Shown piece after piece: positions 24,270 through 33,595 of a stretch of 37,779 bases of DNA. The stretch's first letter is position 1, and each line of letters begins with the position of its first letter. The stretch covers positions 1-37,779 of the forward strand of contig JAGBUS010000040.1 in assembly GCA_017630735.1 (NCBI GenBank), in the 5' to 3' direction. A program made the translations under genes and the position numbers. This DNA comes from Alistipes sp. (GTDB taxonomy: Bacteria > Bacteroidota > Bacteroidia > Bacteroidales > Rikenellaceae). Below the pieces are notes generated by a model. It searched no databases, was not told the DNA's origin, and worked only from the letters and a program-made list of their open reading frames with translations.

Positions 24270-25520
24270 CTACTTTTTAAGCTGTCCTGCAAGGCGACCT
24301 GTCGAGAATGCCACCTGCATATTATATCCGCCTGTATTTGCGTCGATATCGAGCACCTCACCAGCAAAATACAATCCCTTGACAAGCGTAGACTCCATAG
24401 TATACTTATTGACCTCAGAGCAATCAACACCACCAGCCGTAACGATAGCATACTGGAATGGCGCATAGTCGGAGATTGGGAATACCATGCCCTTCAAAAT
24501 CTTGACAAGGCGCAACTTTTCAGCATCGGTCAACTTGCTAACATATGTCTTAGAGTGGAAATCCACCTCCTTTGCCAAAGGCACAACAAGCTGCTTAGGC
24601 ACCAACTTACGCAACAACTCTGAGAAGAACTCATTAGGCTGCATCTCGGCAATCTCTCGCTCGATACGAGCAATAAGAGTCTCCTCATCTAGTGCTGGTT
24701 TAAGGTCCACCACAATCTTCACACGCTTCTCATCGATGATGGCATCCACAGCATCACGGCTCATACGCAATGCCACAGCACCCTCTATACCACGCTCCGA
24801 GAATCCTAACTCACCAAACTACTCCTGAACAAGCTCATTATCGACATATAGCTTTGCACCGACATTCTTAAGAAGTACTCCATTCATATACTCCTTCTGT
24901 GGATGCGACGTTACGAGTGGGGTCAACGATGGACGCACAGGCTCAATATTATGACCTAACGAGGCAGCAAACTCATAACCATCACCTGTAGAGCCTGTAG
25001 ATGGGTAGCTCACACCACCTGTACAAACTATTACATGCTGCGTCTCCTCTCTACGCTCAAAACCACGAGCATTGCGATAACGCACACCTGTAACCTTACC
25101 TCCTAGGGTCTCGATAGCCGTAACCTCGGTCTTATACATAATCTTCACGCCCTTATCCTCGCAGAAGTCAACAAGGGCGTTAGCGATGTCCCACGCCTTA
25201 CCACTCTTTGGGAATACACGCTCACCACGCTCAGTCTCAAGTTTCACACCCTGACGCTCGAAGAAGCGCACAGTAGCGCGATTGTTGAACTCAGCAAACG
25301 CCACAGAGAAGAAATCAACATTCGTACGTACCTTCTCAAGAAACTCCTCAGCAGGACGCGCATTTGTAAGGTTACAACGCCCCTTACCCGTAATACGTAT
25401 CTTACGTCCGGCTTTCTCCATCTTCTCCATTAGAAGTACCGAATGTCCATTCATCGCGGCTGTACCTGCTGCCATAAGACCTGCAGCTCCAGCACCAATA
25501 ACTATTACATCGTATCCCAT
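24270..25520 (-). pseudogene. HI0933/YhiN-family flavoprotein interrupted by an in-frame amber codon
   Basis: The gene reads in one frame over 417 codons except for TAG at 24821-24819. The N-terminal part (233 residues) has the FAD-binding VIVIGAGAAGLMAAG and GKGRCNLTNA. After the stop the same frame continues FGELGFSERGIEGAVALRMSRD to a normal end with FAGEVLDIDANTGGYNMQ and STGRLAGQL. The codon before and the family pattern suggest the TAG replaced a GAG (Glu). Family members are NAD(P)/FAD-dependent oxidoreductases of unclear substrate. As read, only a truncated N-terminal piece would be made unless the stop is read through or is a sequence error. It follows the hydrogenase-like operon by 46 bases. 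Confidence 0.85.
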
Positions 25521-25566: not shown

Positions 25567-26328
25567 CTACTTCTTTTGTTTCGATCTTAGACGGGTGATG
25601 CCATCGATAAAACATAATGGATGCGTTGGAGCACCAGGAAGCCATAAGTCGACATGGTACTTATCAAAGAACCTACGGTCAACAGCCTCGCTCTCGGCAT
25701 ACAATCCTCCCGACACTGCCTCCGAGCCTGCTACAACCAAAATCTTTGGCTCAGCGATAGAGTTATAGCATATATCAAGAGCCTCTGCCATATTCGAAGA
25801 TATTGGACCTGTAAGTACTAAGCCATCAGAGTGGCGTGGCGATGCTGTAAAGCTAACACCAAAGCGCCCAAAGTCGAAGTTTACATTGCCTGTGGCATTT
25901 AGCTCCATCTCAACAGAACAATCGCCACCTGCTGACACCTCTCTTAACTCCAATGCCTTTCCAAAATACTTTGCTATTTCTGGGCGAATAACCGATGTGT
26001 CGAATTTGGGTGCTGTCTGACCAGCCTCCACTACAAGATCTTCACGACGCGTTGCAGCAAGGCGATGCTCATTAGTAAACTTTATGTTCTTAGGCGCACA
26101 TTTCTGACACTCGCCACAGAACAAACAACGACCCATATCGAGTGTAAATGGAGCAACTGTAATAGCTCCCGTAGGACATATCTTTGCTGCGCGCTCAATA
26201 TCACCCTTATCCTTGCTATCGGTAAGTAGTGGGAAACCACGAAACTCCTCAGTAAGAGTTACAGCATCCAAATCTGGAATATATTGCCATCCGTGGCTAT
26301 GTAGTATCTTTGCTTTTCCAAATAACAT
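25567..26328 (-). CDS. Fused ferredoxin/NuoB-like subunit (HyfH-HyfI type) with lost cluster ligands
   Basis: 253 residues. The N-terminal part (about 1-100) is a HyfH/NuoI-like ferredoxin. One site remains, with Cys68, Cys71, Cys74 and Cys77, plus Cys51 in ICPTGAI; the other CxxCxxC is replaced (Lys41, Ile44, Ala47). The C-terminal part (about 125-253) resembles HyfI/NuoB: GGDCSVEMEL, LVLTGPISSNM, AGSEAVSGG and LPGAPTHP. Of four proximal-cluster ligands only Cys137 is kept; the others are Gly134, Glu203 and Ala233. A single [4Fe-4S] cluster is likely. Electron transfer to a NiFe site therefore looks broken. Last gene of the complex, 28 bases after the large subunit. Confidence 0.75.
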   Translation of the reverse strand: MLFGKAKILHSHGWQYIPDLDAVTLTEEFRGFPLLTDSKDKGDIERAAKICPTGAITVAPFTLDMGRCLFCGECQKCAPKNIKFTNEHRLAATRREDLVVEAGQTAPKFDTSVIRPEIAKYFGKALELREVSAGGDCSVEMELNATGNVNFDFGRFGVSFTASPRHSDGLVLTGPISSNMAEALDICYNSIAEPKILVVAGSEAVSGGLYAESEAVDRRFFDKYHVDLWLPGAPTHPLCFIDGITRLRSKQKK

Positions 26329-26356
26329 ACTCTCAAAATTTTAGTTCCGCACCCGA

Positions 26357-27868
26357 CTATAAGTCGTGACCGCAGTAGGATAGGTTAAAACTCTTGTTAT
26401 TAATAGGGAAGTCGGAAATACCCTCCGAACGTACCGCAATGGCAAGACCCAACCAGTTATGAAGACTTGGGTCCTTAATCTTATACTTTGCAATATTGCC
26501 CTTATCGTCTGTCAATGCCACATGGCAAATCTCACCACGCCAACCCTCAACAAGCGAGAATGACAACGACTCAGCTGCCAACGGTGCCTCATAATCTGGG
26601 GCAGGGATATTCTCTCCTGGTGTATACTCTGCCAAAGCCTTCTCAATATAGTCAGCACTCTGAAGCACCTCATCCATACGTGTTGCGAGACGAGACATAA
26701 CATCGCACTCATGCTTTAGTATAGCCTCATGCTTAATCTCGGTATAATAACCCCAAGGGTGCGTAGCACGCAAGTCACGTAGCAATCCGCTGGCACGAGC
26801 TGCCTGACCAACACCACCAATACGTATCATCTCGCTCTTTGGAACAAGACCACACTGATCGAAACGTGCAAGAAGAGTCTTATCCTCAAGGATATCATCA
26901 CGCACCTCGTTATATCTACGACGTACATCGGCAATATTCTTTCGAATCATAGCTATCTTCTCAGCAGTAAGAGGATGATTACTACCACAAGGACGTATAA
27001 CACTCTTTCCAAAACGATTACCACACCACGCCTGCGATGTATTGATAGTTACTGTACGCAACGCCTCACACGCCACCTGATAAAGCTGGAAGCCGATATC
27101 TGTTGCCAAAGCACCTGTATCTGCAAGATGCATAGCAATACGCTCCAACTCAATGGCAATCATACGCTCAAGATTTAGGTTCTTTGACGCCTGCTTTCCT
27201 GCCAACTTCTCAACAACCTCAGCATACGCCGTAGCATGACCTACTGCAGTATCGCCAGCGATAGACTCCGCGATAAGCGTCTGGCGCAATCTATTTTGGT
27301 TACGCACTATCTCACCCTCAACACCGCGATGCTGATATCCGAGAGCTATCTCAAGGTGGAGAACCTGCTCTCCATCACAGATAAAGCGGAAAGCACCTGG
27401 CTCGATGATACCTGCATGAATAGGACCCACATTCACTTCATGAAGCTCATCGCCCTCAATAGTATAGAATGGGTAGCTATCCATTGTTGAACTTTTATCA
27501 CGACGATCGTGACTAAAGCGCAAAGGCTTAAGCCATGGATGGCTATCGAAAGGAATGCCATATAGCTCATGCATCTCGCGCTCGAATGGATGGAATTGTG
27601 GATGGATGGCTGTTAGCGATGCCAAACCCTCTGCATAGTAATCTGGAACAAACGATGTTACAAGCACCTCTGATGTCTTGTCATCGAGAAGAATCATATA
27701 GAACTTCAAACCTTGCTCAATCTCCACAGCGAAGTAATGACCTACATGGTAGCGAACATCATTCATGCGCTCCTTAAGGTCGTTATATAGGTCTACATAC
27801 TCAACAACAGGGATATCCTTAATGGCAACTGCAGTAGCCCTATTATCTGTTATATGATATAGTTTCAT
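26357..27868 (-). CDS. HyfG/NuoCD-like large subunit lacking NiFe-site cysteines
   Basis: 503 residues. NuoC-like part (1 to about 130) with EREMHELYGIPFDSHPWLKP; NuoD/hydrogenase large-subunit part (about 145-503) with LEIALGYQHRGVE. The first metal motif of hydrogenases (RxCGxC) is replaced by AESIAGDTAVGHA (200-212) with no cysteine. The C-terminal DPCxxC is replaced by NLSYCGHDL with only Cys499. The ordinary NiFe centre needs four cysteines, so hydrogenase activity is not expected. Folding around the NuoB-like partner and the NuoH-like membrane subunit should be kept. Function of the site is unknown. Confidence 0.8.
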   Translation of the reverse strand: MKLYHITDNRATAVAIKDIPVVEYVDLYNDLKERMNDVRYHVGHYFAVEIEQGLKFYMILLDDKTSEVLVTSFVPDYYAEGLASLTAIHPQFHPFEREMHELYGIPFDSHPWLKPLRFSHDRRDKSSTMDSYPFYTIEGDELHEVNVGPIHAGIIEPGAFRFICDGEQVLHLEIALGYQHRGVEGEIVRNQNRLRQTLIAESIAGDTAVGHATAYAEVVEKLAGKQASKNLNLERMIAIELERIAMHLADTGALATDIGFQLYQVACEALRTVTINTSQAWCGNRFGKSVIRPCGSNHPLTAEKIAMIRKNIADVRRRYNEVRDDILEDKTLLARFDQCGLVPKSEMIRIGGVGQAARASGLLRDLRATHPWGYYTEIKHEAILKHECDVMSRLATRMDEVLQSADYIEKALAEYTPGENIPAPDYEAPLAAESLSFSLVEGWRGEICHVALTDDKGNIAKYKIKDPSLHNWLGLAIAVRSEGISDFPINNKSFNLSYCGHDL

Positions 27869-27872
27869 AGCA

Positions 27873-29291
27873 TTAGTCGATATTAATTATAACATCAATT
27901 GCATCGCGCAAAAAGTCGGGCTGCCATACACCTGCAACAATAGCCACAATAAGAAGCACTGCTGCTGAATATGACAAACGACGATTTACTGCCGATAGGT
28001 GTACCTCATCCTGATTAATCTGATAACCAAGACGTAGTGAACGACGCCATATAGAGTAGATTACTACACACATCAATATAAGCATTATTGCAAGCAACCA
28101 CCAACTACCTACAGATATTATCTCCGAGAAGATCATCACCTCTGACACAAAGAGTGGCGATGGTGGGAATGCCAACAACACAAGCGTACCGAGGATAAAA
28201 CCAATAGCACCAACGCGATTGATATTCATATAGTTACCTATACGATTGATACTATAGCTATCGTAGATATGACGCATAATGCCCACCTGGTAGAACATCG
28301 AGCTCTTAACTAGGGTATGACACATAACATGGAATACTGCAGCCCATAGAGCAACACCTCCAATACCCATACCAATAGCTACAATACCCATATTCTCTAC
28401 AGTAGAGTATGATAAGAAGCGTTTATAGTTGTTTGTACGACGAAGGAACATTGCACCTACTGCCAACGACAAAATACCAATAAGAATCATCAAGTGACGT
28501 GCCCACACGAATACATCACCTGCCGCAGCATATACTGAATAAATGCGATATATAGATACAAAACCTGCGTTTACAAGAGCTGTAGAGATAAATGCCGATG
28601 CAGGAGCTGGAGCAGCATAGTTAGCATCAACGCCCACAGTGTAGAGTGGGAATATCTCCATCTTACAGCTATAGCCTACAACAATAAGCAAGAATGCAAC
28701 CTTCAAATAGAGTGTATTACCCTCAGCGATAACCTCTCTTAACGAAGCGTAATCCAAAGCTCCATGATGTGCAACAGTAGAGAGCAGCAAAATACCAAGA
28801 TATGCCATGGCAATACCTGTAGAACATACGAAGATATACTTCCATGTAGCCTCCAACGAGTGCTTAAACTCACGGTGATAGATAATACCAGCAGAACAGA
28901 TTGTTGTAGCCTCAAGGAATACCCATGTCATAGCCACATTGTCCGAGTAATATACACAGCTTATTGCCAAAGCAAGCAACATGAGGATAGTATAATATGC
29001 CTTATACGATGCTATAGATACATTCTCTGCCTTAAGGTATGACGAAGAGTGAATAAGCGTAAAACCAAGCACCGCAGTCATAAGGATATGGAATACTACA
29101 GCAAGTGTATCTGCCTTGAAGATGTACAGCATAAGGCTATCCATTCTACCGAAACACAATAGCAATGTTACGGCTACTACCTGCACACCAAAGAATAGAC
29201 CTGCGAAAATATGTACGGCACGCTCAGTGCGAACAGCAAGAGGTGCTATGGCAAGTAATAGTGATAGTATAATATATATAAGCATTTCCAT
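27873..29291 (-). CDS. HyfF/NuoN-like antiporter-type membrane subunit
   Basis: 472 residues, about 14 transmembrane helices. It has the Mrp-antiporter/complex I fold: a Glu in the helix around MTWVFLEATTICSAG, and GYSCKMEIFPLYTVGVDANYAAPAPASAF, the family's Lys-containing helix followed by the HAxAPxPxSA-like loop. LAFPPSPLFVSE is also conserved. It should form one ion channel of the membrane arm. The stop lies 4 bases before the large subunit, indicating tight coupling. Confidence 0.85.
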   Translation of the reverse strand: MEMLIYIILSLLLAIAPLAVRTERAVHIFAGLFFGVQVVAVTLLLCFGRMDSLMLYIFKADTLAVVFHILMTAVLGFTLIHSSSYLKAENVSIASYKAYYTILMLLALAISCVYYSDNVAMTWVFLEATTICSAGIIYHREFKHSLEATWKYIFVCSTGIAMAYLGILLLSTVAHHGALDYASLREVIAEGNTLYLKVAFLLIVVGYSCKMEIFPLYTVGVDANYAAPAPASAFISTALVNAGFVSIYRIYSVYAAAGDVFVWARHLMILIGILSLAVGAMFLRRTNNYKRFLSYSTVENMGIVAIGMGIGGVALWAAVFHVMCHTLVKSSMFYQVGIMRHIYDSYSINRIGNYMNINRVGAIGFILGTLVLLAFPPSPLFVSEVMIFSEIISVGSWWLLAIMLILMCVVIYSIWRRSLRLGYQINQDEVHLSAVNRRLSYSAAVLLIVAIVAGVWQPDFLRDAIDVIINID

Positions 29292-29296
29292 CGTCG

Positions 29297-29923
29297 TTAG
29301 TCTTTAATAGAGGTTAGTGCATCTGTCTCGTCAGTATGTATCTCATTATCCATACGCTTAAGGAACATACCGAGGATAACAATAGAGACAAGGATATCAA
29401 GCATAATAGCGAGATTGATGAGGAGTGGGAACTCAACACCAATAGCCATTGAGAACATAAACACGCCATTCTCGATAACGAGGAAACCAATAAGATGTGC
29501 AAAGATACGCTTGCGCATAACTATCAAGATCAAACCCGAAAGCAGAGCATAGAGTGCCACGCCAAAGAATATCATATCAGTACGATCATCAGCCATATAG
29601 TAGGTGATAGTACAACTTGCCACAAGAGCAATAATCGACATTACCAAAGCACCAAACTGCGACGATGATGCATGGATACGATTAATCTTCGTACGCTTGA
29701 TGACATACAACAATATGGCAGGAATTACAATAGCCTTGAAGATAAAGGTCTCAACTACAATAAATCCCAACTCCACAGGATGAAAAGCATGCATACGCGC
29801 TATAGCAATACCAAAGAGCAACAAACCCTGAATGGCAAGTATAGAGGTCTGATTACGGAAGCGATCAGCTATCGAGAGATAGATGAGCGTCAACACATAG
29901 AGAATTATTAGTGATAGTATCAT
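29297..29923 (-). CDS. HyfE/NuoK-like membrane subunit
   Basis: 208 residues and about six helices. It is longer than NuoK (about 100) and similar to HyfE (about 216). The C-terminal half resembles NuoK, with VIENGVFMFSMAIGVEFPLLINL holding the conserved buried Glu. It likely helps conduct protons between the NuoH-like and antiporter-like subunits. Placed 5 bases before hyfF-like and 7 bases after hyfC-like. Confidence 0.8.
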   Translation of the reverse strand: MILSLIILYVLTLIYLSIADRFRNQTSILAIQGLLLFGIAIARMHAFHPVELGFIVVETFIFKAIVIPAILLYVIKRTKINRIHASSSQFGALVMSIIALVASCTITYYMADDRTDMIFFGVALYALLSGLILIVMRKRIFAHLIGFLVIENGVFMFSMAIGVEFPLLINLAIMLDILVSIVILGMFLKRMDNEIHTDETDALTSIKD

Positions 29924-29930
29924 AGCTCTA

Positions 29931-30848
29931 TTATATTTCTATGTTTTGGATTAGTAAGAAACCTGTGAGTAGTACGAGTGCCGACATCGCTACAATTGTG
30001 AGGATGTAGGTGATGTTGCGAGAGAGTTTATTACGCGCACGTAGTGACTCCACAACACCGATTGACACTCCTGTTATAATTATTGCCATTGGAACAGCAA
30101 ACCACCAGTGGAACGACACCGCAACAGCAATGGCATTAGCCGCAATAACTGCGAAGATGGCATTCTTCAACCATCCTGCAATATGGATAAACGCCATGTC
30201 TACACCAGAGTAATCGAGACACATAACCTCATGAATCATCGTAAGCTCAAGGTGAGTCTTAGGGTCGTCAACTGGCACACGTCCCGCCTCGATAATCATA
30301 ATAACAACAAATACGTATGCCACCATAAGAAGCACAATCGTAAGGTTCATGTCGAGCTCCTGCGCCATAGAGAAGATATCGGCGAACGATGAATATCCAC
30401 AGAAAAGAGCCAACGTAGCCAAGCCCATCATAAGGGCAGGCTCAACCAATGCACCATATAAAGCCTCACGCGCAGCACCCATACCCTCAAACGAGCTACC
30501 TGTATCCAACGCAGCGAGGATAATAGCTACGCGAGAGAGTGCCAACAAATAGGCTACAAGGATAATATCGCCATGAAACGAGAGCATAGGCTCAAGGTCT
30601 GCAACTGGGATAAACAAGAAGGCTAACAATGCACCACCAAGATATACGGCAGGAGCAATGCGGAAGAGTGCCGTTGTAGTTGTTGAGTAGACCGCGCCCT
30701 TCTGCAACTGCAATCTAACGTTATATATATGCTGGAAGAAGCGAATACCCTTTCTTCCCGCAAGCAATGCTCGTGTACGATTGATTACGCCTGTAATAGA
30801 GAGCGCAACAACAACCATTAGCAAAGTATTTAAGAGTTTTACTAACAT
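29931..30848 (-). CDS. HyfC/NuoH-like membrane subunit
   Basis: 305 residues, about eight helices. Conserved cytoplasmic loop residues include AGRVPVDDPKTHLELTMIHE, the NuoH/HyfC signature with acidic residues thought to link redox chemistry to pumping, and RKGIRFFQHIYNVRL near the N-terminus. It anchors the soluble module to the membrane arm. Placed 18 bases after the hyfB-like gene. Confidence 0.88.
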   Translation of the reverse strand: MLVKLLNTLLMVVVALSITGVINRTRALLAGRKGIRFFQHIYNVRLQLQKGAVYSTTTTALFRIAPAVYLGGALLAFLFIPVADLEPMLSFHGDIILVAYLLALSRVAIILAALDTGSSFEGMGAAREALYGALVEPALMMGLATLALFCGYSSFADIFSMAQELDMNLTIVLLMVAYVFVVIMIIEAGRVPVDDPKTHLELTMIHEVMCLDYSGVDMAFIHIAGWLKNAIFAVIAANAIAVAVSFHWWFAVPMAIIITGVSIGVVESLRARNKLSRNITYILTIVAMSALVLLTGFLLIQNIEI

Positions 30849-30866
30849 AATTTTCTGAAGTTAGGG

Positions 30867-32855
30867 TTATAGTATACCAACAATTGTAAGGATAAGCACC
30901 ACAACGAAGAATGCCAAAGCGAAGGTGATGTAATTATTTACACGACCAGTACGCAAGCGCATAACCCATTCGTTAATACGATGCATCATCTTCACCCACC
31001 ATGTTCCGAACAATGAGTCTACCTTATCCTTATGCTCAATACGATAGTTATGTGGCGATGGGAAGATCTCCGACTTATCAACAGCGCGACCATCCACAGC
31101 ATCCTTCATAAGAGGCTTGCCAATACTCTCCAAACCCTCAGAGAATGATTCGCCGGTATACTGCATACGTACATTTGATGCAGTAAAACCACATCCCCAG
31201 GTTGGACCCTGCTCAATCTTGCGGTTGCTCTGTAGCTTATGCTTCAACACAAATAGAAGCAAAACGATAGCTATCAACACCCAAGCCACAGCACTTAACG
31301 ACTGAAGTGTTGGAACAAAATGGTTAACAGCAATGCTATTATCGGCACCAGAGATAGCCTCAGCAACGATTGTAATAGGACGTATAGCAAACTGTGGGAA
31401 AAGACCGATAAAGAGGATAAACACAGCAGGAATAGCCATAGCACCTATTCGCAAATTATCAACCTCCATAGACTCCGCCACATGATGCGAACGTGGTGAG
31501 CCGAGGAATACAACGCCATAGAGCTTTGTGAATGCCAAAACTACAATACCACCGATAAGCGATAGCGCAATAATACCTGCTATAGAATATAGCACCTCAT
31601 GACCATCGCTCACGCCATTAAACATTCCGATATAGATGAGAAGCTCCGATACAAAACCATTTAATGGAGGAAGCGCGCAGATAGCAATTGTAGCAAACAA
31701 CATCAATATAGCTGTAACGGGCATGTGTTTTGCCAAGCCTCCCATCTGATTCATCGTTGTTGTGTGCATCATCGAATAGATGTTACCTGCGCTAAAGAAG
31801 AGCATGCTCTTAAACAACGAGTGGTTAACAGTATGCAACAATGCACCACACAAGCCACACATACCAATAAGGTTACTACCAGCAGCATGACCTACAGCAG
31901 CAATACCTAAGCCGATAAGTATAACACCGATATTCTCAATACTTGAATATGCCAACAAACGCTTAACGTCGTTCTGCATAGCTGCAAGTATAACACCCCA
32001 AAGACCTGTTACGATACCAGACAACAATACGATTAAACCTATATCGTAGAGTAGCTCAGTATTATGATCAATAGCCTGCATAAGACGCATAATACCATAG
32101 ACACCCGTTTTAATCATCACACCCGACATTATTGCCGACACGTGCGATGGTGCTGCTGGATGCGCCTCAGGAAGCCAGATATGCATTGGGAAGAGACCCG
32201 CCTTCATACCAAATCCGATGAAGAGTATCACGAAGAGTGGCAGCGGAGTTGCTACTTTAAAATACTGCTCTACAGCCGAGAAGTTTGCCGAGCCTGTAAC
32301 ATTATAAAGCAACACAAAACCTACGACAAGGAACATAAAACCGATATGCATCATAACCAGATAGTTTAGTGCAGCACGACGTACCACCAAACGATCTGCC
32401 TCAAAAAGGATGAGGATAAATGAGGCAATGGTCATAAGCTCCCACGAGAATAGGAATGAGAAACCACCACTTGACATTACCACCAACATCATCGACACAA
32501 CAAGCAACACCAATGCTGTGTAGTGCAATGAGAAATGGCTCGATGAAAAACGCTTCATATACCCTGCGACATATCCGCGGGAATAGAGCACGGTTGCCAT
32601 TGCAGCAATAGAGATAATTACCAAGAAGAGTGATGACAATTTATCTACCGCAAAACTCTCCTCGCCAAACATCGACGTTGAGAATGTTGCTATTGTCACC
32701 ATACCCTCATTGAATGCCTTAACTGCAAATGTCAAAGCTGCTGCGGCAGTTACAGCAATAGTAGCCGTTGCAACCCACACTTTATGACGTAGCGGAGCAA
32801 CAAAAATAGCCACTATGACAACTAAAGCTGCCAGTAAAGTGTACAAATACATCAT
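30867..32855 (-). CDS. HyfB/NuoL-like antiporter-type membrane subunit
   Basis: 662 residues, about 16 helices. It has the conserved Glu in FSWELMTIASFILI, KAGLFPMHIWLPEAHPAAPS with the channel Lys and loop His, and GVMIKTGVYG. It ends with an extra helix after a charged region (about 580-640; RIEHKDKVDSLFGTWW) that resembles the HyfB/NuoL lateral extension. With the HyfF-like subunit it gives two antiporter-type modules, one fewer than E. coli Hyf (no HyfD). First of the six complex genes, 15 bases after rsmE. Confidence 0.87.
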   Translation of the reverse strand: MMYLYTLLAALVVIVAIFVAPLRHKVWVATATIAVTAAAALTFAVKAFNEGMVTIATFSTSMFGEESFAVDKLSSLFLVIISIAAMATVLYSRGYVAGYMKRFSSSHFSLHYTALVLLVVSMMLVVMSSGGFSFLFSWELMTIASFILILFEADRLVVRRAALNYLVMMHIGFMFLVVGFVLLYNVTGSANFSAVEQYFKVATPLPLFVILFIGFGMKAGLFPMHIWLPEAHPAAPSHVSAIMSGVMIKTGVYGIMRLMQAIDHNTELLYDIGLIVLLSGIVTGLWGVILAAMQNDVKRLLAYSSIENIGVILIGLGIAAVGHAAGSNLIGMCGLCGALLHTVNHSLFKSMLFFSAGNIYSMMHTTTMNQMGGLAKHMPVTAILMLFATIAICALPPLNGFVSELLIYIGMFNGVSDGHEVLYSIAGIIALSLIGGIVVLAFTKLYGVVFLGSPRSHHVAESMEVDNLRIGAMAIPAVFILFIGLFPQFAIRPITIVAEAISGADNSIAVNHFVPTLQSLSAVAWVLIAIVLLLFVLKHKLQSNRKIEQGPTWGCGFTASNVRMQYTGESFSEGLESIGKPLMKDAVDGRAVDKSEIFPSPHNYRIEHKDKVDSLFGTWWVKMMHRINEWVMRLRTGRVNNYITFALAFFVVVLILTIVGIL

Positions 32856-32870
32856 CTATTTAATATTGAG

Positions 32871-33581
32871 TTATAGCTTATTTATGGTTGAAGTAACAAC
32901 CGTTGCTACTACCGCTGCGGTCTCAGTTCGCAGACGCTCCTTGCCCAGCGATATAGCCTTAAATCCATTTTCGAGTGCAAAGGTAATCTCTTCTTCCGAA
33001 AAATCACCCTCTGGACCTATTAAAATTAGGGTATCACCACCTTTTTTTATCAATTTACCCAGATACTCCTTATCACCCATCGCATCATTACAATGTGCAA
33101 TAAACTTATCGCCTTCGAATGGAAGCTTAACCACATCCTTAAATCGAGTGAGTGGATGAAGTATTGGATGATATGCCTTAAGCGACTGTTTTACTGCCGA
33201 AGTGATAACCTTCTCCTCGCGCTCATCCTTAATCTGGCGACGCTCGCTATGGTCACATTCAAGCGGATATACCTCAGAAACACCAACTTCGGTAGCTTTT
33301 TCTAAAAACCATTCGAAACGATCGATATTTTTTGTTGGTGCTACAGCCATGACCAATCGGTATGACATTTTCTCATACTCTGCAGTAGTCTCTACCACCT
33401 CAACCACACAATGTTTTACATTGTCACTCACCACTTTACAGCGATACATATTACCCTTACCATCTGTCAGATGAAGCTCATCACCCACGCGCATACGAAG
33501 CACTCTAATGCAGTGTTTCGACTCCTCCTCAGGTAAAGTATACTCTGGGAGTGTAATTTCTGGAGCATAAAAAAGTTGCAT
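32871..33581 (-). CDS. rsmE: 16S rRNA (uracil-1498-N3)-methyltransferase RsmE
   Basis: 236 residues from ATG at 33581; a TTG six bases upstream is the alternative. The N-terminal PUA-like domain is followed by a SPOUT fold with trefoil-knot motifs LILIGPEGDFSEEEI and ISLGKERLRTETAA. It methylates U1498 in the decoding region of 16S rRNA. It begins the transcript that continues into the hydrogenase-like complex; the 15-base gap implies co-transcription, though no functional link is known. The promoter is the palindromic box at 33596-33613. Confidence 0.95.
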   Translation of the reverse strand: MQLFYAPEITLPEYTLPEEESKHCIRVLRMRVGDELHLTDGKGNMYRCKVVSDNVKHCVVEVVETTAEYEKMSYRLVMAVAPTKNIDRFEWFLEKATEVGVSEVYPLECDHSERRQIKDEREEKVITSAVKQSLKAYHPILHPLTRFKDVVKLPFEGDKFIAHCNDAMGDKEYLGKLIKKGGDTLILIGPEGDFSEEEITFALENGFKAISLGKERLRTETAAVVATVVTSTINKL

Positions 33582-33595
33582 TGCCAATAATTTTT

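Follow-up and report, generated by a model that had tools for sequence, protein, structure and literature searches.

An Ehr-type membrane complex of Alistipes without NiFe and proximal-cluster ligands and with a conserved carboxylate pair

What can a membrane complex that is built like hydrogenase-4 and complex I still do when the cysteines of its NiFe site and of most of its iron-sulfur clusters have disappeared? This question is raised by six genes on contig JAGBUS010000040.1 of an Alistipes sp. metagenome-assembled genome (MAG; assembly GCA_017630735.1); the whole analysed stretch of 37,779 nucleotides is referred to as the window. Sequence comparison indicates that the NiFe ligands are absent from the entire family, that in this branch the proximal cluster (the equivalent of cluster N2 in complex I) and one ferredoxin cluster are gone as well, that two proximal ligands have been exchanged for carboxylates, and that the putative pump residues are kept. 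We tentatively favour, with a rough probability of 0.42, a complex of the Ehr (energy-converting hydrogenase related) lineage in which the electron path into the catalytic chamber would be disconnected, a carboxylate pair would occupy the N2 position, and ions would be moved without redox chemistry at this site.

The operon and the lost NiFe site

The six consecutive genes cover positions 25567 to 32855 of the minus strand. An open reading frame (ORF) check of the window found all of them intact, with gaps of 18, 7, 5, 4 and 28 bases from the HyfB-like gene to the fused HyfH/HyfI-like gene:

30867..32855, minus strand: HyfB-like antiporter-type membrane subunit, 662 amino acids (PF00361, E 6.6e-57; NCBIfam hydrogenase 4 subunit B, E 1.1e-152, below cut-off)
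29931..30848, minus strand: HyfC/NuoH-like membrane anchor, 305 amino acids (PF00146, E 3.4e-24)
29297..29923, minus strand: HyfE-like membrane subunit, 208 amino acids (NCBIfam hydrogenase 4 membrane subunit, E 1.3e-13, below cut-off)
27873..29291, minus strand: HyfF-like antiporter-type membrane subunit, 472 amino acids (PF00361, E 2.7e-35)
26357..27868, minus strand: HyfG/NuoCD-like large subunit without NiFe ligands, 503 amino acids (PF00346 and PF00329)
25567..26328, minus strand: fused HyfH (ferredoxin) and HyfI (proximal-cluster) subunit, 253 amino acids (Pfam, PDB sequences and alignment)

The first-pass annotation, made from the letters of the window, had already recognized these HyfB-, HyfC-, HyfE-, HyfF-, HyfG- and fused HyfH/HyfI-like genes, and its reading is borne out: five of the six proteins match Pfam families above the cut-offs, the HyfE-like protein being the one without a Pfam match. 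All NCBIfam matches shown (HyfB, HyfE, HyfF and Nuo families) fall below their curated cut-offs; thus, the six proteins are divergent. The nearest relatives are found in ruminant-gut Alistipes MAGs, with a large subunit that is 93% identical.

Gene order and types follow the B-C-E-F-G-H-I scheme of hydrogenase-4 and formate hydrogenlyase (FHL) of E. coli (Hyf/Hyc, group 4a). The large subunit matches HycE (PDB chain 7z0s_E) at a sequence E of 2.4e-35, and the same chain is the top PDB match of its AlphaFold2 monomer model, with a TM-score of 0.82 by query length and a predicted local distance difference test (pLDDT) score of 88.6. In the model of the fused subunit (pLDDT 88.3), the HyfI half matches NuoB, HycG and MbhJ chains. 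The input alignments contained 73 large and 69 small subunits, a part of those found. Unlike Hyf/Hyc, the operon encodes neither HyfA nor HyfD, HyfH and HyfI are fused, no HypD was found in the genome, and the large subunit lacks both the NiFe ligands and the C-terminal tail. With complex I (Nuo), the complex shares homologous modules, the end point of NuoCD and the absence of NiFe ligands; it differs by the lack of NADH-module genes in the operon, of the N2 ligands and of the quinone histidine and tyrosine, and by its HyfE-like subunit.

Three sites of the large subunit are of particular relevance:

27248..27259, minus strand: A204-G205-D206-T207, where E. coli HyfG and HycE have CGIC, the first NiFe motif (alignment)
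26360..26386, minus strand: C-terminus NLSYCGHDL, in which NLSYCG replaces DPCYSC (same alignment)
26525..26527, minus strand: C448, a cysteine accompanying the acid swap described below (133 of 137 acid-grade rows, 3 of 15 Cys4 rows)

In the alignment with E. coli HyfG and HycE, the four NiFe ligand positions are occupied by A204, T207, S497 and G500, and none of the four cysteine ligands expected of a group 4 [NiFe] hydrogenase is present. The protein stops at HDL, where E. coli NuoCD also ends. It had been noted before that the first NiFe motif contains no cysteine and the second contains one; both statements are correct, yet the cysteine in question, C499, is not at a ligand position. The same picture emerges across 162 family members: A157/T4/C1 and T107/S53/N2 at the first two positions, S161 and G161 at the last two (one gap each). 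No ligand position carries a cysteine in 161 of these proteins (one of them with gaps at two positions), and a single cysteine is present in the remaining one. D206 and H151 are invariant (162/162), and C164 and H449 are found in 161 of the 162. Cysteines at shifted positions, which the first-pass annotation had named as a reason to abandon its view, were sought in both subunits and none were found; in the large subunit, C164, C282, C448 and C499 all lie off the ligand positions. A canonical hydrogenase with shifted ligands is therefore ruled out by the cysteine alignments of both subunits. The positions that we take to be the quinone-binding histidine and tyrosine of NuoD correspond to P157 and G205 in an alignment with E. 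coli NuoCD.

These features support an assignment to the Ehr lineage, as already suspected from the letters of the window. In the excerpts of the literature on which this and all later citations are based, Ehr complexes are described as related to group 4 hydrogenases and devoid of Ni/Fe-coordinating residues (PMC6349859), HydDB leaves them out as non-hydrogenases (PMC5037454), and a survey of 2025 calls their function unknown (PMC12342949). The window complex matches the printed definition (PMC6349859) and has a group 4-homologous large subunit without Ni/Fe ligands together with two Mrp-antiporter-like PF00361 subunits; group 4-like and antiporter-type subunits are likewise features of published Ehr complexes (PMC6349859, PMC12342949).

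Iron-sulfur sites and the acid swap

The second peculiarity resides in the fused small subunit, whose proximal positions were assigned against a relative that carries all four cysteines (locus L134; L numbers denote the loci compared):

26107..26178, minus strand: retained [4Fe-4S] ligand set, C51 with C68, C71 and C74 (alignments of relatives)
25921..25923, minus strand: D136 at proximal-cluster Cys1 (acidic in 138/138 relatives that lost the proximal cysteines)
25912..25914, minus strand: V139 at Cys2, variable (alignment of relatives)
25720..25722, minus strand: E203 at Cys3 (acidic, E72 and D66, in 138/138)
25630..25632, minus strand: A233 at Cys4, variable between A, N, T and D (alignment of relatives)

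All 104 relatives in the small-subunit alignment have C51, C68, C71 and C74; C187 is present in 97 of them, and no other cysteine is conserved. The former view that three of four proximal ligands are lost has to be revised, because all four are gone: C137 lies one residue off a ligand position and is found in 20 of 78 Alistipes-scan loci and in 0 of 26 others. The loss of one ferredoxin cluster, also proposed earlier, is evident from the absence of motif I next to the retained set. The four proximal cysteines expected of a group 4 hydrogenase are missing, and so are the N2 ligands of NuoB in complex I, where the N2 cysteines are described in PMC7684303.

Grades of cluster loss were compared in 166 of 222 loci; E. 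coli, duplicates and short stretches around hits already included were set aside. As Alistipes loci, the best 80 of 115 confirmed hits were taken, which biases them towards the window, and L039 and L042 originate from one MAG. Small subunits were counted when scoring at least 120, which yielded 155. The 11 loci without a counted small subunit comprise a true hydrogenase (L182), four incomplete sequences (L009, L181, L203, L218) and six loci with no such gene in the stretch examined (L107, L111, L118, L207, L213, L222). The ferredoxin columns of L165, L166 and L180 were misaligned or absent in the script alignment and were read by eye.

All four proximal cysteines are intact in 17 of the 155 small subunits (Cys4 grade) and lost in 138 (acid grade). 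In the latter, Cys1 is replaced by aspartate in 136 and glutamate in two, Cys3 by glutamate in 72 and aspartate in 66, and both positions are acidic in 138/138, while Cys2 (V55, C46, I21, A5, G4, N3, S2, T2) and Cys4 (A69, N59, T9, D1) drift. The proximal cluster was thus not merely erased, two of its ligands having become conserved carboxylates. The three motif I cysteines occur in 12 of the 17 Cys4 proteins and in none of the 138 others, of which 130 have none and eight have one, within 13 residues upstream of C51. The two losses are nevertheless separable, because L169, L171 and L173 keep the full proximal set without a full motif I. All grades have lost the NiFe ligands, and so have the divergent L165, L166 and L180. 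Because this loss is general (162 large subunits) but the proximal Cys4 persists in 17 of 155 small subunits, loss of the proximal cluster looks secondary. The distant match L182, which carries CGIC and DPCYC, looks like a true hydrogenase.

Inspection by eye extended the series. A fused small subunit in which every cluster cysteine is present is encoded on a Variovorax plasmid. The small subunits of Burkholderia, Cupriavidus, Azospirillum and Methylocalor have no ferredoxin domain and keep proximal cysteines. Allomeiothermus silvanus (L226) has lost the proximal cysteines, with T, D, E and S at the four positions, and keeps the same single ferredoxin site, which looks like a further separate loss. 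The HyfH/HyfI fusion had been regarded as an additional reduction of the window copy, but this has to be abandoned because of the fused full-cysteine subunit in Variovorax and the three motif I cysteines in 12 of 17 Cys4 relatives. Fusion as the last step of reduction is excluded by these fused relatives; it preceded cluster loss.

Few residues separate the two grades. D136, S138 and E203 are the only small-subunit residues that pass thresholds of at least 90% of Alistipes and at least 85% of other acid-grade rows with no more than 20% of Cys4 rows; the large subunit contributes P133, L142, L170, Q279 and C448, and the HyfC-, HyfF- and HyfB-like proteins a few positions. The most extreme relative is L180 (G012:C386), with D, C, D and D at the proximal positions, no ferredoxin domain and no visible iron-sulfur site. 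It is a divergent Ehr operon in the order I-B-C-E-F-G that encodes the whole set, known from a single contig of a single MAG; phmmer comparison with the window B, C, E and F proteins gave E values of 5.3e-102, 7e-30, 1.1e-7 and 8.5e-45.

A small-subunit tree of 87 sequences with masked ligand columns requires the acid state to have arisen twice: 69 of 70 acid rows trace to a single event and L180 to another. The HyfG tree conflicts with this: it requires five changes, three of them forced by starred branches, nests L134, which has all cysteines, among acid rows, and places L168 and the L199/L121 pair at an unresolved fork with three acid clades. Our reading follows the masked small-subunit tree, according to which the main family acquired the acid state once and L180 independently; recurrent swaps within the main family are not proposed.

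Replacement of proximal ligands by acids is not described in the excerpts examined, to which the main Ehr survey does not belong, and the Ehr literature among them contains no account of a complex that also lacks the proximal and one ferredoxin cluster. Likewise, among the matches listed in literature searches on Ehr in Bacteroidetes, SulP linkage, Alistipes and cluster-less hydrogenase-like complexes, none dealt with this complex. Marreiros 2013 reportedly compared Ehr with complex I and may already describe cluster losses. Ehr complexes as such are known; the acid swap at Cys1 and Cys3, the graded cluster loss and a fusion that predates it appear to be new. A parallel is offered by the sulfane sulfur reductase MBS, also a group 4 relative that lost hydrogenase activity and in which the proximal cluster is changed. 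In contrast to the window protein, which keeps none, MBS retains three coordinating proximal cysteines, with catalysis taking place there (PMC7684303).

Membrane arm, selection and distribution

If the operon were a decaying hydrogenase remnant, ligand loss would be an expected first step, and a few relatives are indeed incomplete. The membrane arm argues otherwise. E139, K218, K249, K298, H341, H345 and K349 of the HyfB-like protein are found in 144 to 148 of 147 to 148 relatives, E127, K210 and K329 of the HyfF-like protein in 157 to 158 of 157 to 158, D94, D115, E128, E136 and E187 of the HyfC-like protein each in 146/146, and E151 and D176 of the HyfE-like protein in 135/135. The putative channel residues, namely E139, K218, K249 and K349 of the HyfB-like protein and all those listed for the other three, are common to E. 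coli HyfB, HyfF, HyfC and HyfE. The earlier statement that the membrane subunits keep their lysine and glutamate channel motifs is thereby confirmed. Two further HyfC residues, H199 (145/146) and H206 (145/145), are near-invariant and correspond to E and Q in E. coli HyfC; by homology, they may be located in a loop at the chamber.

The ratios of nonsynonymous to synonymous substitution rates (dN/dS) are 0.026 to 0.051 for six genes against L033, 0.033 to 0.064 for five genes against L035, and 0.031 to 0.052 against L041, values that are rough as dS exceeds 1. Because the channel residues are near-invariant and dN/dS is about 0.03 to 0.06, the operon is under strong purifying selection and not decaying. 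Decay is ruled out by dN/dS; intact frames, the conserved acid-for-cysteine exchange and the completeness of 74 of 80 Alistipes loci further reduce it to a scarcely credible explanation. The view of the first-pass annotation, a selected machine that is not a hydrogenase, agrees with the ligand alignments, dN/dS, channel residues and distribution.

In the order, 70 of 295 genomes, including that of the window, contain a match at E 1.5e-71 or better (hand count). In the genus, PF00346 matches were found in 81 of 121 genomes; counted by hand from the score gap, these comprise 62 genomes restricted to the weaker Ehr-like type, 13 with both types and six restricted to the complex I type. The full set of six gene types occurs in 74 of the 80 Alistipes loci; judged by ORF labels, it is also present in 47 of 58 loci from Bacteroidales and in all 15 at phylum level. 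The Alistipes number together with the dN/dS against L033 argues that the operon is more than a chance arrangement. A second HyfB-type gene lies upstream in 22 of the 58 non-Alistipes Bacteroidales loci (e.g., L126, L130, L131, L132), and this seven-gene form is common outside Alistipes.

A partner subunit encoded elsewhere could in principle supply the missing clusters or the NiFe site, and could be unsampled in a MAG that is about 80% complete. We consider this very unlikely. In the genome, the 49 kDa family and the small-subunit profile each have one match (for the latter, 6 of 10 candidates were scored), so that a second small subunit was rejected, and none of the gene clusters beside the operon is shared by several of the 58 Bacteroidales loci. 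HypD, the only maturation protein sought, had no match in this incomplete MAG, in a search whose control was positive in 4 of 14 genomes. The genome encodes one FeFe-hydrogenase match, and no antiporter-type genes other than the two PF00361 genes of the operon were found in it.

Possible modes of action

How electron transfer drives pumping in complex I is debated, and a pumping arm in which N2 is swapped for acids would separate the two halves of the problem: if ions move, redox chemistry is not needed for the membrane machinery. If true, this would also provide a first handle on the role of Ehr. In the reading that we favour, D136 and E203 would form a pair of carboxylates in the uppermost part of the chamber enclosed by the large and the small subunit and act as a protonation or ion/substrate-binding site. 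This site could be coupled, as driver or as driven element, to the acidic channel of HyfC and the antiporter modules HyfB and HyfF, and H+ and/or Na+ would thereby be moved without redox chemistry at the site, the complex acting for instance as an antiporter or as a gated path for protons. In that case, the one [4Fe-4S] cluster left would have a structural role or sense redox state and not belong to a through-going wire. Its ligands, the first three of motif II and the fourth of motif I, presumably correspond to the outer cluster N6a. PMC9783039 is consistent with this assignment. A through-going wire appears improbable, because the NiFe site, the proximal cluster and the inner ferredoxin cluster are lost and the remaining cluster is likely N6a.

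Acids at Cys1 and Cys3 in 138/138 proteins, at two of four otherwise drifting positions, favour such a gating protonation or binding site in combination with the kept acidic channel. Published work suspects that Ehr complexes link ion transport to a redox reaction in the cytoplasm; for the present branch, the missing proximal cluster argues against this. More broadly, we regard it as possible that this branch of the complex I/hydrogenase family is no longer redox-driven and that its arm is run by protonation or substrate binding. The extremes would be L180 without iron-sulfur sites and two Alistipes loci, L107 and L111 (A. muris), which keep B-C-E-F-G and have no small-subunit gene at the locus despite ample downstream sequence. 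In its place they encode a 111-amino acid protein (L107:10521-10853; L111:10515-10847) that overlaps the large-subunit gene stop to start, is 88% identical between the two, has no Pfam match and occurs in no other locus searched. If true, another small protein at the place of the iron-sulfur subunit would be the extreme case of a non-redox function.

Several observations weigh against this proposal. Of the 155 small subunits, 152 retain the ferredoxin site according to the script and two more on inspection by eye, which is odd if redox chemistry is irrelevant. A quinone is probably present, because the genome encodes two futalosine-route proteins and NqrA, along with an Nqr/Rnf-type protein; the organism thus probably makes menaquinone. 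MenD had no match in this genome, and the menD search in 19 chosen genomes says little because the futalosine route can replace it. Incomplete loci weigh both ways: among Bacteroidales, tblastn shows the large-subunit gene standing by itself in L118 and L213, and accompanied by the small-subunit gene, with no adjacent membrane genes, in L134 and L198. A small-subunit gene is absent at L107, L111, L118, L207, L213 and L222. All these absences apply to the stretch examined, the rest of these genomes not having been searched. Furthermore, the 138 acid sequences are related by descent and hence not independent, the dN/dS values are rough, and the AlphaFold2 models are monomers with chamber loops of pLDDT below 50 (HyfG 149-155, HyfH/HyfI 144-150). 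What is shown are the facts of sequence; non-redox ion transport is inferred from them.

The main rival explanation is an enzyme that is still redox-active: electrons would enter at the ferredoxin cluster and reach a quinone, a flavin or a mononuclear metal at D136/E203, thereby driving pumping. The conserved C51/C68/C71/C74 set, the futalosine-route proteins and NqrA, the full cluster sets of close relatives and the prevailing D, C, D, N pattern of non-Alistipes acid-grade relatives, which could hold a metal, are all in line with it. We nonetheless consider it somewhat less likely than the reading favoured above. Both chamber-nearer clusters are missing, Alistipes mostly keeps D and E alone of the four positions, the quinone histidine and tyrosine of complex I are replaced by P157 and G205, and L180 has no visible cluster. 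If the remaining set is N6a, the gap would exceed the 14 Å spacing of the FHL relay (PMC9474812). The Cys4 relatives, some of them in the same order, provide matched controls for experiments.

Non-redox use of complex I-type modules has a precedent in DAB2, in which a complex I-type membrane subunit takes part in such chemistry (PMC13144422). A third explanation accordingly invokes chemistry coupled to the membrane potential, such as CO2/bicarbonate interconversion in the old active-site chamber, as in DAB2 or cyanobacterial NDH-1MS. Of the 15 phylum-level loci, seven carry a SulP-type transporter gene near the operon and 11 an EIIA-type gene; 14 of the 15 are Cys4. At L166:6921-9140, a fusion of SulP, STAS and phosphotransferase system (PTS) EIIA lies between the large- and small-subunit genes (the Pfam assignments cover L166 and L170). 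Bicarbonate is among the substrates of some SulP proteins, and the family also carries other anions. These neighbours point to anion or bicarbonate transport for the phylum-level Cys4 branch. However, 14 of the 15 loci are not acid-swapped, and such clusters were not seen in 58 Bacteroidales or 68 Alistipes loci, many of which were ended by contig edges. Neither a carbonic-anhydrase-type nor, unlike in DAB2, a DabA-like Pfam domain occurs in the six window proteins, to which this search was confined, and the complex keeps HyfC-, HyfE-, HyfG- and HyfI-like parts. For the window complex, interconversion of this kind is improbable.

A few observations concern the surroundings of this and related operons. 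At L121:11637-16226, an Ehr operon with intact proximal cysteines adjoins genes of an NAD-linked NiFe hydrogenase type (a 51K/24K fusion, a NuoG-like gene and PF00374). On Variovorax PBL-E5 plasmid 3, a second hyf-type cluster lies downstream of the first (L223:14433-19260), its large subunit falling beyond the stretch covered. In the window, an HI0933-like flavin adenine dinucleotide (FAD) oxidoreductase gene at 24270-25520 (minus strand) is split into two ORFs, both matching PF03486, and represents a disrupted gene or an assembly error. On the other side, an RNA-methyltransferase gene (32871-33587, minus strand), which we take to be of the RsmE type, ends 15 bases before hyfB. Of 61 Alistipes loci covering hyfB, 57 show this gene ahead of the operon on the same strand, and the two may be co-transcribed.

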